Of a stretch of DNA of 64,000 nt, positions 7,083 through 62,257 are shown piece after piece (the stretch's first letter is position 1; each line of letters starts with the position of its first letter). The notes below the pieces were generated by a model. The model did not search any database. It saw nothing but the letters and a program-made list of their open reading frames with translations, and was not told where the DNA came from. The stretch is taken from the NCBI GenBank assembly GCA_038853715.1, contig JAWCJE010000002.1, positions 1-64,000 of the forward strand, read 5' to 3'. The DNA comes from Candidatus Nezhaarchaeales archaeon (GTDB lineage Archaea; Thermoproteota; Methanomethylicia; Nezhaarchaeales; JAWCJE01). Position numbers and translations under genes: made by a program.

Positions 7083-7280
7083 TCAAGTTCGCTGAGGTTT
7101 ATCGCTAGCGAGAATCCCCGCTTTAGCTACGTTCTCCCTAGGGAGGTCTATGTAAACCACGATGACGTCCTCCCTTGAAACCTTAGCTATATCCGTAAAG
7201 GCCTTGGTTATAGCTTCAGACAACTTCTTCTTCTGTTCTACCGTCCTCCCCTCAAACCAGTAGACGGTGACTAAGGGCGT
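7083..7280 (-). CDS. 4-oxalocrotonate tautomerase family protein, likely ACG start
   Basis: Sequence PLVTVYWFEGRTVEQKKKL is typical of the 4-OT family, whose catalytic residue is an N-terminal proline exposed after Met removal. Here that proline codon (CCC, 7275-7277) is preceded directly by ACG (7278-7280). The nearest standard starts (TTG 7290-7292, GTG 7287-7289 and 7284-7286) would leave the proline at position 4-6 and inactive. GGTGGTG lies a few bases upstream of the ACG as a possible ribosome site. Starting at ACG gives 65 residues, the usual family length. Tautomerase activity is inferred from family; the physiological substrate is unknown. Confidence 0.7.
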   Translation of the reverse strand, partial: TPLVTVYWFEGRTVEQKKKLSEAITKAFTDIAKVSREDVIVVYIDLPRENVAKAGILASDKPQRT

Positions 7281-7424
7281 AAACACCACCAAAATAAACT
7301 ATAAGCTAAGCCCTATATACCTAAGGGATTAAAACTAAGTTCATCAGGCTTTTAAGGCAAGTTTAACTAACTACGATTTCCCAAGATCTTCATGAAACAA
7401 AAAGAGCAAATCCCCCATTTTATT

Positions 7425-46083: not shown

Positions 46084-46164
46084 AGCCTAAACCCTATTAG
46101 CCAGCGCTAACCCGTATATGTTAGCCTTTCTAAGGGGGAACTTAAACTGGAGCAGCGGGAAGCA

Positions 46165-46515
46165 ACGTATAAACAAGTGATCGTGGTAAGGAGGGACTTA
46201 AAGATGAGTAAGGGTAAGCTCGCTGTAGAAGTAGCGCATGCAGCGGTAAGCGCAGCGGAGGAAGCGCGGTTAAAGGCTAGAGGGTGGTGGGAGAGGTGGA
46301 TGTTAACCTCCCAAAAGAAGGTGGTCGTCAAGGTTTCAAGTGAAGAGGAGCTCTTAAGGCTTGAAGCTGAAGCTAAGAGTTTAAACATCCCATGCTCCCT
46401 GATTAGGGACGCGGGTTTAACGGAGCTACCACCTAACACCATAACTACGCTAGGTTTAGGGCCCGCCCCTGAGGAGCTCCTAGATAGGTTAACTCGTATG
46501 CTTACACTCCTATAG
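46165..46515 (+). CDS. pth2: Peptidyl-tRNA hydrolase Pth2, likely ACG start
   Basis: A Pth2 enzyme that recycles peptidyl-tRNA: VIVVRRDLKMSKGKLAVEVA, then TLGLGPAPEELLDRLT. Archaeal homologues begin with Y/L-K-Q before VIVVR. Here TAT AAA CAA stands directly upstream of the GTG at 46177 and is preceded by ACG at 46165; no ATG, GTG or TTG occurs further upstream before the stop. Starting at ACG gives 116 residues, with GGGAAG as a weak ribosome site. With GTG the protein loses the conserved YKQ. Confidence 0.88.
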   Translation, partial: TYKQVIVVRRDLKMSKGKLAVEVAHAAVSAAEEARLKARGWWERWMLTSQKKVVVKVSSEEELLRLEAEAKSLNIPCSLIRDAGLTELPPNTITTLGLGPAPEELLDRLTRMLTLL

Positions 46516-46532: not shown

Positions 46533-47852
46533 TTGCTTAAAACCTTTTCAAAGCTTGATGAAGAGCTGGGAATACTTTATTATGCTTCGGGCCCCAAAGC
46601 GCTTAAAGGTAGACTTAGACAGTTAATCGAAGACTTCATAGTGGAGGAAATTCTACATCATAAACCGAGCGGGGGGAGCGGTAATTATACGTTCTTCACC
46701 TTAAAGAAGGGCGGGATAGATACCAATCGGGCCCTGTTGATGATAGCTAGAGCGTTAGGCTTAAGTGTTGACATGTTTAACGTAGCCGGCATGAAGGATG
46801 CTAAAGCGTTAACTAAACAGTTCGTAACGGTACGCGCGCCGCCTGAAGCTTTAGCATCCTTAAAGGTGCGGGGTGTATCCATTGAGGGCGTTGAAAGGGT
46901 TTCGAAGCCTCTACTTAAGAGGTGCATAAGGGGGAACTTGTTTAGAGTTACCATTAGGGGGTTGAGACTAGCTAAGGAGGAAATAGCGGAGGTGATTAAG
47001 GAGTTATGGCAACAGGTAGTCGAGTTCGGCGGCCTACCCAACTATTACGGCTATCAGCGTTTCGGAACGGTAAGAAGTAATACTCATAAGGTTGGAAAGC
47101 TCCTAGTTCAAGGGAGGGTTAAGGACGCTGTCCTAGAATTTTTAGCCCACCCCTACCCAAACGAGGCGCGTGATGCTTACGAGGCGCGAAAGGAGTTAAG
47201 CGAAACCCTCGACTTCGCTAAGGCGTTAAAACGGTTCCCCCGGAGGTTAACATACGAAATAGCAATGCTAAGACATCTGGCTAAACGTTCCGACGACTAC
47301 GTAGGAGCCTTAAGGAGGTTGCCTTTAAGGGTTTTAAAGCTCTTCATCCAAGCCTACCAGTCGTACCTATTTAACAGGGTCCTTTCATCACGTATTGAAT
47401 GGGCGGGAAATCTGCGGGCATTAGTTGATGGTGATAGGCTTCAACCTTTAAATGGTGAAGGCTTCAGTTTTACGGTTACTAAATCCTCAATAAGTGAGGC
47501 TAAGGCCATGCTTAATTCAGGTAGGGCCTTTCTAATCTTACCGGTTTTAGGCTTTAATAGTTTAAGGTTTGAAGGAAGCTATAAGCCGATCGTTAAGGAC
47601 ATTTTGGAGGAGGAAGGCGTTAAGCTTGAAGACTTTAAGGTTTCCCTATTCCCCGATTTAAGGTTTCCAGGCTCCTTTAGGCGCGCCTCGGTATTAATCA
47701 AGGGCTTAGTAATAGATGAAGCGCAGCCTGATGAAGTTAATGAGGGGTGTTTAAAGGTACGTATAAGCTATGAGCTTGAAAGAGGGGCTTACGCAACAAT
47801 CTTTCTAAGGGAACTCATAAAGCCTTCAGATCCTCTAGCATCCGGCTTTTAA
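46533..47852 (+). CDS. truD: tRNA pseudouridine-13 synthase TruD
   Basis: A 439-residue TruD. Catalytic motif AGMKDAKALTKQ near residues 85-96, YGYQRFGTVRSNTHKVGK near 170-187, inserted TRUD domain. Modifies U13 of tRNAs. TTG start at 46533, 18 bases after pth2. Its last 50 bases lie inside the tmk-derived direct repeat; truD and tmk evidently were convergent, overlapping neighbours before the island came in. Confidence 0.93.
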   Translation: MLKTFSKLDEELGILYYASGPKALKGRLRQLIEDFIVEEILHHKPSGGSGNYTFFTLKKGGIDTNRALLMIARALGLSVDMFNVAGMKDAKALTKQFVTVRAPPEALASLKVRGVSIEGVERVSKPLLKRCIRGNLFRVTIRGLRLAKEEIAEVIKELWQQVVEFGGLPNYYGYQRFGTVRSNTHKVGKLLVQGRVKDAVLEFLAHPYPNEARDAYEARKELSETLDFAKALKRFPRRLTYEIAMLRHLAKRSDDYVGALRRLPLRVLKLFIQAYQSYLFNRVLSSRIEWAGNLRALVDGDRLQPLNGEGFSFTVTKSSISEAKAMLNSGRAFLILPVLGFNSLRFEGSYKPIVKDILEEEGVKLEDFKVSLFPDLRFPGSFRRASVLIKGLVIDEAQPDEVNEGCLKVRISYELERGAYATIFLRELIKPSDPLASGF

Positions 47853-48063
47853 GAAAGGTCGTTACGATACCCCTTAGTTCCTGTTGAACTTCCTCCACCA
47901 GCCTATTAGTATTAACGACTGGATATCCACAGCTTACAGCTCTTTTAAGGAAGTTAGCCCTAACGATACGGAGGAAGCTTTCATTCTCAAACTTCTCAGG
48001 TTTAATTAAACGCTTCCTACGAAGCGATATTGATGGATCCACATCTAATATTATCGTTAAGTC
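47802..48063. repeat. Left direct repeat (truD/tmk 3' ends)
   Basis: About 262 bases nearly identical to 57109-57370. By eye only a handful of differences (for example AGATCC/AGACCC and CTTACAGC/CTTGCGGC). Includes the truD 3' end and the antisense tmk C-terminal coding region. It marks the left edge of the nitrogen island. Confidence 0.85.
47815..48063 (-). pseudogene. tmk 3'-end fragment
   Basis: Encodes the last roughly 75 residues of thymidylate kinase (DPSISLRRKRLIKPEKFENE to RMLEDLKAL), with two residue differences from the intact tmk at 57122. It joins an IS end at 48064. Cannot be functional: no P-loop. Recent copy, given the near identity. Confidence 0.85.
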
Positions 48064-48164
48064 TAGGCTAAGAAGAAGCTCAAGCGCCTAATAAGCCTCT
48101 CATCAACAACTAATACATAGATTAAACAAGACATAAGAAGCTTGAAGAATTAAGCCACAAAGCT
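48064..48164 (-). mobile_element. IS end fragment abutting the tmk fragment
   Basis: Matches 2100-2201: GCCTAATAAGCC, CTCATCAACAAC, AGAAGCTTGAAGAATTAAGC and the terminal CCACAAAGCT. Contains only the first codons of the transposase and its terminal repeat. Suggests IS involvement in making the island boundary. Confidence 0.6.
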
Positions 48165-59734: not shown

Positions 59735-60931
59735 CTAAGTTACATTTTCTAAACAATGCTTCCAGCTATTAACCGTTACTTCTGCCCTGTGGAGAGATCT
59801 TAGATAATGTGCTGCTTTAAAGGAGTCGGTAGCAATGGTTAGCCTATAGATATCCTTAGCTAGTGCTACAACTAGGCAGGTATCTGTGAAAACTTTTCCA
59901 CCAGCCCTCTCTATGGTGTCAATACATTCGAGCTTTAACGCTTTAGCCTTAACCCTCCTCGATGTGCAGATCCATAACTTCTTCCCAGACTTCACCCTTC
60001 GTCCTTCTAGAAAGGTAGCCAAGTTCCTCAACTCGTTTAAACCACAGTGAGGGCAACCTAGAAATATTAGGTCCGGGGCTTTTGACGACTGAAAGCTCTC
60101 CATTAATTGCTTAATTTCAACCCCGTTTACCGTGATTTTCTCAACCCCTACCATAGGAAGGTCCACCTTAGGAGTTTCAGGGGTTATACCGGGTGCTTGG
60201 AACATTGTTATGGAGGCTGACGTACCTAAAGCCGCGCTCAACGCCTTTAGCTTCTCAATGGTAGGCCTTTTAAGCCCCAATATTAAGGGTACGCCGCTTT
60301 TAAGCGTATTGCTAACTAAGTAGCCGAGAGCTCCATATCTGTACGCTTCATCAAGCTTAACATCAACTTTAACCACCGCCGTATACCGCCTATTCGCATC
60401 TAAATGCATACCGTAAAAGGGGGTTTTCCCTACGATAGCGGCTGCTAACGCGGATATACCGCTCTCCCTATTGGTTCTAGCGCCTAGTACGGAGTTAGCG
60501 TAAATAATGGCCGACGACTCTGCCCAGGCTAATCTATCCCCAAACCTAGGGGAAAACCCGATTAGGTAGGGTGTGCAGGTACAGGTTGTTTTAACCCCTA
60601 ACCTTTTAAAGCATTTTAAAACTTCGAATTGCTTCTCGGCATCCTCATCTCGAACGCCCATCTCCCTCCAACGCTTCAAATCCATACCGCAAGGATTAGT
60701 AGTGGTAAGCACTTTGACCTTAGAACCCAATTTGGCGAGGTCTTTAAGTAGATCTAGACCCACGTCCCCTATGTTCTTATAGGATACACCGCTTACATGT
60801 GCCGACGTTATGCCAACCAACCGCTCAGCTTCAAACGCTTCACCTAACGCTACCAGGAGTTCCATAGCCCTCTGTACGCCAACCCCTTCATCCCCCCTCA
60901 ACACCTTTTCCTCATCCAGCGATAGATACGT
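59735..60931 (-). CDS. Phosphomevalonate dehydratase large subunit (aconitase X, DUF521), likely ACG start
   Basis: AcnX catalytic subunit: HVSGVSYKNIGDVGLDLLKD, TNPCGMDLKRW, TCTCTPYL and LGCPHCGLNEL supply the Fe-S cysteines. Family members begin M-Y-L-T/S-x-x-E-E. Here YLSLDEEKVLRGDEG is encoded, preceded by ACG (60929-60931) and then GGT and the UbiD stop TAA. GGAGG stands 8 bases before the ACG. Starting at the first TTG (60904) would cut the conserved N-terminus. From ACG the protein has 398 residues. Confidence 0.88.
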   Translation of the reverse strand, partial: TYLSLDEEKVLRGDEGVGVQRAMELLVALGEAFEAERLVGITSAHVSGVSYKNIGDVGLDLLKDLAKLGSKVKVLTTTNPCGMDLKRWREMGVRDEDAEKQFEVLKCFKRLGVKTTCTCTPYLIGFSPRFGDRLAWAESSAIIYANSVLGARTNRESGISALAAAIVGKTPFYGMHLDANRRYTAVVKVDVKLDEAYRYGALGYLVSNTLKSGVPLILGLKRPTIEKLKALSAALGTSASITMFQAPGITPETPKVDLPMVGVEKITVNGVEIKQLMESFQSSKAPDLIFLGCPHCGLNELRNLATFLEGRRVKSGKKLWICTSRRVKAKALKLECIDTIERAGGKVFTDTCLVVALAKDIYRLTIATDSFKAAHYLRSLHRAEVTVNSWKHCLENVT

Positions 60932-60934
60932 ACC

Positions 60935-62257
60935 TTAACCCTCCACGCCCGGTATTCGGGCCTTTTCAAACTTAGACGTTGCTCGACCGATCGGAATGGT
61001 AGCATCTATACCAACCTTTGTGGTTAGTAATAGATCTTGGTCGGCTGATGGATCCAAGCTCGACCCTCTCGCGTTCTCTATGACAACTAATCCTCTATCC
61101 CCTTGGAAACGGGTAGCTATGGCCCATTCAACCTCCGTTAAGTCGTCCACATCTACGTCTTCATCTACCACTACTACGTGTTTAAGGCTTGGGTGAGCCG
61201 TAAATGCGGCGATTATAGCGTTCTTCCCATCCCCTTCAACCTGCTTCTTAATGGATACTACCGCGTGAAGCCAACCACAACCGCCGGGCGTTAACCTAAC
61301 CGCTTTAACTTTAGGTACTACAGAGCTAACCGCATTCCATATAGCGAGTTCACGAGGCATCCCCATAAGAAGCCTATGCTCAAGGCTGGCCGGTAATATC
61401 GCTTGGTATATAGGTGTTGAACGTCGCATTACCCTAGTGAACTTTATTATCGGTTGCCTCCTAACGATATCGTAAGTTCCAGTTACGTCGACGAACGGCC
61501 CCTCTTCAACGAATTGATCGGGCAGAATTAAACCTTCGAGAACGATTTCAGCCTCAACAGGGACCTTTACGTCCGAGGTTGTACAGCTACATACTCTTAA
61601 GCCACCCTTCAGTATACTGTTAGCCACCCAAAGCTCATCAACCCCGAAAGGAGGTGAGCAGGCCGCAGCGAATAATATGGCTGGATGCATCCCTATAACC
61701 ACGGCTACCTCTAATGGCTTCTTAAGGCTTCTAGCTTCTTGGTACATCGAGTAGAGGTGTCTTGGTACTAGCCTTATTACCCCCACGTCCTTACCGAGAA
61801 CCAGTATCCTATGTATTGAAGCGTTTTGAAAATTGCCTGAAACGGATTTAGCTACTACTATGCCGGCCGTTAAATAAGGACCTCGATCCTTTTCGTAGTG
61901 AGTTAGTACTGGAAGCTTTAACAAATTAGGCTCTTCAACAATCTCTTTAACTGGTCCATCCTCAACCTCCATGGGCTTTAAAGGGCTCGTTAACGCGTTG
62001 CTAACCTCTCCGTAAAACGTTTGTTCGTTAACGCCGAGCGCGTGTAAAATCCTGCTTCGAGTACTACAAACTCCGCCGACTACAGGTATCCTAGATTCCT
62101 TACATCTTTTAAACAAGACTACAGGCCCTCCATCAAGCTTTTTAAGCCGAGCCGCTACCTCAAACATCGTCGATAACTCGTCATCTACCTCCACTAGTTC
62201 GTTACGCGACTTACACTCCTCAAGGAATAACCTTAAGCTCGTAGCAACTACCTCCAC
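60935..62257 (-). CDS. UbiD-family decarboxylase (anhydromevalonate phosphate decarboxylase)
   Basis: 440 residues of the UbiD family (GGPVVLFKRCKESRIPVVGG; HRILVLGKDVGVIRLVPRHL; EGPFVDVTGTYDIVRRQPII). In archaea the homologue next to AcnX decarboxylates trans-anhydromevalonate 5-phosphate to isopentenyl phosphate, using prenylated FMN. Context with both dehydratase subunits supports that role. GTG start at 62257. The flavin prenyltransferase UbiX is not in the window. Confidence 0.88.
   Translation of the reverse strand: MEVVATSLRLFLEECKSRNELVEVDDELSTMFEVAARLKKLDGGPVVLFKRCKESRIPVVGGVCSTRSRILHALGVNEQTFYGEVSNALTSPLKPMEVEDGPVKEIVEEPNLLKLPVLTHYEKDRGPYLTAGIVVAKSVSGNFQNASIHRILVLGKDVGVIRLVPRHLYSMYQEARSLKKPLEVAVVIGMHPAILFAAACSPPFGVDELWVANSILKGGLRVCSCTTSDVKVPVEAEIVLEGLILPDQFVEEGPFVDVTGTYDIVRRQPIIKFTRVMRRSTPIYQAILPASLEHRLLMGMPRELAIWNAVSSVVPKVKAVRLTPGGCGWLHAVVSIKKQVEGDGKNAIIAAFTAHPSLKHVVVVDEDVDVDDLTEVEWAIATRFQGDRGLVVIENARGSSLDPSADQDLLLTTKVGIDATIPIGRATSKFEKARIPGVEG

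Follow-up and report, generated by a model that had tools for sequence, protein, structure and literature searches.

Putative near-cognate start codons, ACG foremost among them, in a Nezhaarchaeales archaeon

In the window, by which we mean the whole stretch of 64,000 nucleotides analysed, the gene for the large subunit of aconitase X (AcnX) carries ACG where its relatives have a standard start codon. We consider it probable that this ACG is a real start codon, as most likely is the one in a 4-oxalocrotonate-type tautomerase (4-OT), and that the lineage tolerates near-cognate starts in about 1–2% of its conserved genes. The coordinates of the features are collected in Table 1.

Table 1. Features at the candidate near-cognate starts (positions in the window unless a locus is named)
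Feature	Position	Strand	Evidence or remark
AcnX (aconitase X, phosphomevalonate dehydratase-type) large subunit	59735..60931	-	398 codons from ACG; Pfam AcnX
ACG, putative AcnX start codon at family start column	60929..60931	-	alignment with relatives
TAA in frame, two codons upstream of AcnX ACG; stop of UbiD-family gene	60935..60937	-	sequence reading
GGAGG, Shine–Dalgarno-like, 8 nt before AcnX ACG	60940..60944	-	sequence reading
GTG, first standard in-frame AcnX codon, rival start	60902..60904	-	sequence reading and alignment
UbiD-family decarboxylase gene, ends 3 nt before AcnX ACG	60935..62257	-	TIGR00148, 4.8e-122
4-oxalocrotonate-type tautomerase	7083..7280	-	ACG 7280-7278 directly before Pro
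TTG GTG GTG in frame, tautomerase rival starts burying Pro	7284..7292	-	2–4 codons upstream of ACG
Pth2 read from ACG 46165-46167	46165..46515	+	ACG not relatives' start column
CTG, rival Pth2 start	46147..46149	+	AAGGGGG (46132-46138) 8 nt upstream
GTG, rival Pth2 start, first standard codon	46177..46179	+	sequence reading
HGD-D-family dehydratase	L198:8519-9850		TAAGGAGGTGAAGACAT directly before ACG

The AcnX protein matches PF04412 over its full length (1.7e-145, 485 bits; residues 2–395 on profile positions 2–400 of 400). In the column occupied by ACG, all the relatives compared, drawn from the same order, class and phylum, have ATG, GTG or TTG (29/29), which bears out the original prediction that ACG stands at the position of the family's first Met. 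On the minus strand the region reads GGAGG, 8 nt including TAA and GGT, then ACG, TAT, CTA and TCG, and both the upstream in-frame stop and the Shine–Dalgarno (SD)-like motif were confirmed to the base. The first standard start in frame lies too far in, as predicted: a protein begun at this GTG, nine codons inside, would drop the conserved YLSLDEE, which agrees with the xL(S/T)xEEE of the relatives. On this comparison we read the ACG as the real, if putative, start codon of AcnX, and translational coupling to the UbiD-family gene is possible. The position of a UbiD-family decarboxylase directly upstream of the AcnX large subunit also fits the archaeal modified mevalonate pathway, which combines an AcnX dehydratase with a UbiD-type decarboxylase.

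For the tautomerase, the ACG column holds ATG in 19 and TTG in 1 of the 21 other homologues, and the full-length curated models put Pro at position 2; the catalytic Pro thus directly follows the initiator codon, provided that the protein starts at ACG. The standard in-frame starts lie upstream and would bury Pro-1, as had been noted from the sequence, and since these codons are available so close by, the case for ACG is carried by Pro-1 chemistry. The GGTGGTG upstream of the ACG can also be read as a weak SD. We conclude that this ACG is most likely a real start codon. One tautomerase homologue (L094 of G044) has TAG GAT CCG in place of ATG CCx, with a TAG also within the match.

The third gene named in the original prediction, Pth2, bears it out only in part. 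Its ACG is present, and no ATG, GTG or TTG lies between the upstream TAA and the ACG; the agreement with the family's first Met is only approximate, however, as that column holds no standard codon in any of 29 relatives. These mostly start one to six codons upstream of it, and position 1 of the curated model falls one residue before the ACG. A start at the downstream GTG would cost only YKQ. Pth2 is a gene without a standard start upstream of that GTG and not a clean ACG case, and it is the weaker for having an SD-preceded CTG that fits as well as or better than the ACG.

The claim that three cases in one window reflect a lineage trait was set against a genome-wide count. The survey took stretches totalling 1.25 Mb of the 1.55 Mb of the window's own genome, the sole genome of its family and genus in our collection, and 1.2 Mb of a genome of the same order (G005), the nearer family f2 lying outside it. 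Stop-to-stop frames of the two were compared, most start columns being set by this one comparison genome at roughly 30–80% identity, and a gene was called start-less if use of its first ATG, GTG or TTG would lose at least six identical residues. Of 648 own genes that had a usable homologue, ten were start-less, with the frame conserved upstream of the first standard codon. The zone leading up to the conserved part contained an ACG in 7 of these 10 and in 90 of the 638 other own genes (Fisher P = 1.1e-4), the smallest P value among all codons and about 0.007 once corrected for 61 codons. In G005, 7 of 624 genes were start-less, of which one had ACG and the rest CTG, ATT or ATA. The number of start-less genes is thus similar in the two genomes and not clearly higher in the window's own, but the choice of codon differs. 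The expectation of a genome-wide habit stood in this form, and the habit proved broader than ACG, taking in ATT and CTG. As the start-less count in G005 is similar, with CTG and ATA or ATT in place of ACG, relaxed initiation may be order-wide and ACG prominent only in the window's genome.

Within the window, finding ACG at the exact start column twice is unlikely by chance, since ACG makes up only about 1.6% of the codons in pre-start zones (80/5143) and about 48 genes were matched in G005. When the own codons at the partner's start columns were tallied, ACG was not enriched overall, because start positions drift between genomes; in the subset lacking a nearby standard codon, ACG was seen five times in the own genome and never in G005. 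The main starts of the genome are AUG, GUG and UUG (45, 20 and 35%). Its SD signal is weak, a motif preceding about 19% of the standard codons in start zones genome-wide, and pre-start zones showed no ACG-specific SD enrichment (9/80 against a background of 8.3%). SD evidence is therefore strong for single genes only: an SD in register is strong for the HGD-D-type dehydratase, uS11, DUF2148 and THEP1, and moderate for AcnX. A homology-free scan of the genome, seeking an SD followed by any codon, was too noisy to use, as intragenic G-rich motifs swamped the signal.

The best ACG cases in the survey are the HGD-D-type dehydratase, DUF488, SfsA and the class I lysyl-tRNA synthetase (LysRS). In the HGD-D-family gene a 10-base SD precedes the ACG, the first standard codon lies 97 codons downstream, and the N-terminal region is about 75% identical to that of a homologue in G003, whose ATG is one codon off. 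The ACG of LysRS aligns with the ATG of two genomes of the same order, G005 and G002. Like DUF488 and SfsA, a small membrane protein, PIMT and DUF2148 have ACG as the fitting codon. In the gene for ribosomal protein uS11, GGAGGTGA is followed after 7 nt by ATT, where three relatives have ATG in the same column, and the predicted N terminus of uS11 from this putative start is SSRELAWGIAHIYASF...; ATT is also the fitting codon for a flavoprotein and a GPN GTPase. For a THEP1-like NTPase it is CTG, with GGGGTGA 6 nt upstream, and G005 has two CTG starts with the same SD spacing. Four candidates are ambiguous, namely TFE (ATA or ACG), CarA (TTG possible), GPN (ATT or ACG) and Pth2 (CTG or GTG), and CarA was set aside, a start at TTG giving it a near-normal N terminus. 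An adenosine-specific kinase gene (PF04008; L175:2067-2547, minus strand) with an ACG start runs into an in-frame TAA after 70 codons and is probably decaying, or else read through; it was set aside as an ACG case for possible decay, yet is counted among the 7 of 10 with ACG. In the window, a dTMP kinase-like protein is represented at 47815-48087 on the minus strand by its C-terminal half only. The N-terminal half was not found in other frames upstream, and the fragment is therefore probably a gene remnant.

A first alternative is that the downstream GTG, TTG or ATG codons are used and the proteins are merely shorter at the N terminus. In-frame standard codons do exist, AcnX would lose only nine codons and Pth2 only three residues, and for Pth2 and CarA a shorter product is quite possible. 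As a general account it is unlikely: the stretch that would be skipped is conserved in the families of uS11, THEP1, GPN and LysRS, where a standard start would forfeit 13 of 17, 13 of 20, 12 of 16 and 5 of 6 aligned residues, respectively, as identical to the homologue, and in HGD-D it would remove 97 codons, just as in AcnX it would remove a recognizable family motif.

Less probable by a clear step is that the ACG codons are assembly or sequencing errors, or strain polymorphisms, with T changed to C at start codons. In its favour, the assembly is in 30 contigs and the kinase gene above combines an ACG start with an in-frame stop. Errors frequent enough to strike a single defined base in about 1% of genes would, however, have broken many genes, and few genes in the surveyed sequence look truly interrupted: of the 18 pairs listed, most resemble antisense shadows, rRNA or introns. 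Nor would errors be expected to show so strong a preference for ACG.

Start-codon editing occurs in plastids, and C-to-U editing of ACG to AUG in the mRNA would explain the use of ACG alongside an ordinary initiator tRNA. We rate it as slightly more doubtful still, since C-to-U changes could not repair the ATT and CTG starts. Internal positions with Thr in the own protein and Met in the partner's show the same asymmetry for ACC (18 against 5) as for ACG (20 against 5), which looks compositional, and a search for excess C where relatives have T gave no editing pattern, most other T/C classes being nearly symmetric.

The gene for aIF5B is broken at the same point in the own genome (C6, about 31.03 kb, minus strand; L182) and in G005 (C1, about 430.7 kb; L127), by some 31–33 nt between REVGA and TQHIGA in both. 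The own insert folds into a 3-nt bulge, a 4-bp helix and a 3-nt bulge, its removal restores REVGAITQHIGA in both genomes, and it is apparently a tiny bulge–helix–bulge intron in an initiation-factor mRNA, as judged from the predicted fold. The cbf5 gene is likewise interrupted in the own genome (C6, about 45.5 kb; L183) and in G005 (C1, about 837 kb; L147), which fits the intron known from archaeal cbf5 (PMC2738675). Both genes were ruled out as start-less, being interrupted. Of the 32 tRNA genes identified with the Rfam model, about 14 are roughly 90–126 nt long (for example, C8:15664-15789 and C3:24540-24658), and tRNA introns look common in this genome, some of them at unusual positions. 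Although cbf5 and apparently aIF5B give the lineage a precedent, and it may apply to PIMT and TFE, a start codon in an upstream mini-exon joined by bulge–helix–bulge splicing is the least probable of the alternatives, as there is no exon room at AcnX, which starts 3 nt past the upstream stop, or at HGD-D, uS11 and DUF2148, which start 5–7 nt behind their SD.

We return to initiation at near-cognate codons as the preferred reading. An altered initiation apparatus, which had been suggested alongside the trait, was not found in the components inspected, namely the initiator tRNA, aIF1 and aIF1A. The initiator tRNA is nearly identical to that of G005, with a normal CAU anticodon and features of archaeal initiators, A1–U72 and three G–C pairs in the anticodon stem; no changed anticodon, CGU or other, was found in it, and the tRNA-Thr(CGT) resembles an ordinary elongator. 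Nor was aIF1 lost: the own genome has a full-length gene (SUI1, 1.0e-21) similar to that of G005, and aIF1A is also present and similar. In Sulfolobus, aIF1 reportedly favours discrimination against noncanonical starts (PMC6237735), which makes a near-cognate trait mechanistically possible.

We infer from these data initiation at near-cognate codons with Met as the first residue, and its molecular reason. ACG, ATT, CTG and perhaps ATA would be tolerated, and the ordinary initiator tRNA would read Met at ACG: Met-tRNAi(CAU) would accept a codon with one mismatch in contexts where the discrimination step that aIF1 normally aids is relaxed or skipped. The 30S complex would be placed either by SD pairing or by termination–reinitiation at the stop of the upstream gene, the latter being a possible route for AcnX with its ACG so close behind the UbiD-family stop. 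As 5 of the 13 near-cognate genes (AcnX, uS11, GPN, the flavoprotein and HGD-D) start 3–14 nt past the stop of an upstream gene, the others having no upstream gene that near, reinitiation may contribute in some of them. Weaker start discrimination is a reasonable proposal in view of the report on Sulfolobus aIF1. On the stronger proposition, that discrimination is relaxed so far, via a changed initiation complex, that ACG regularly serves, alongside ATT and CTG, to start at least 1% of genes, essential ones included, we are evenly divided.

The premise that ACG initiation is very rare in archaea agrees with what is published: a 2020 review of archaeal initiation gives AUG, GUG and UUG as start codons and mentions neither ACG nor AUU nor AUA (PMC7531240), and no description of ACG-started archaeal genes was found in the open literature, subscription papers aside. 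Such starts are thus hardly described in archaea, although near-cognate initiation itself is already known. If the reading is right, gene finders that admit only ATG, GTG and TTG will truncate or miss such proteins, which would bias any tally of absent or shortened genes in genomes of this kind. The lineage would then also offer a natural test of start-codon stringency in the aIF1/aIF2 system common to archaea and eukaryotes.

All domains of life have known examples of near-cognate initiation: Met-tRNAi initiates at ACG and CUG in eukaryotes, where these two are likewise the favoured near-cognates, and at AUU in infC of Escherichia coli. The genes described here resemble those cases in their ordinary initiator tRNA, in codons with one mismatch and in conserved N termini beginning at the odd codon; they differ in accounting for about 1–2% of the conserved genes tested in a single archaeal genome, where ACG dominates, and in being predicted from sequence. 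With the edited starts of plant plastids they share a genomic ACG in a conserved ATG column, whereas signs of editing elsewhere are absent here and editing would leave the ATT and CTG starts unexplained. The short distance behind an upstream stop in five of our genes is like that in the archaeal gene pairs with termination–reinitiation described in one study (PMC10666635), and the remaining near-cognate genes depart from that arrangement in having no upstream gene so close. Finally, as in the start selection by aIF1, aIF1A and aIF2 described for archaea (PMC6237735, PMC7531240), aIF1 and aIF1A are present here, and most genes likewise start at AUG, GUG or UUG.
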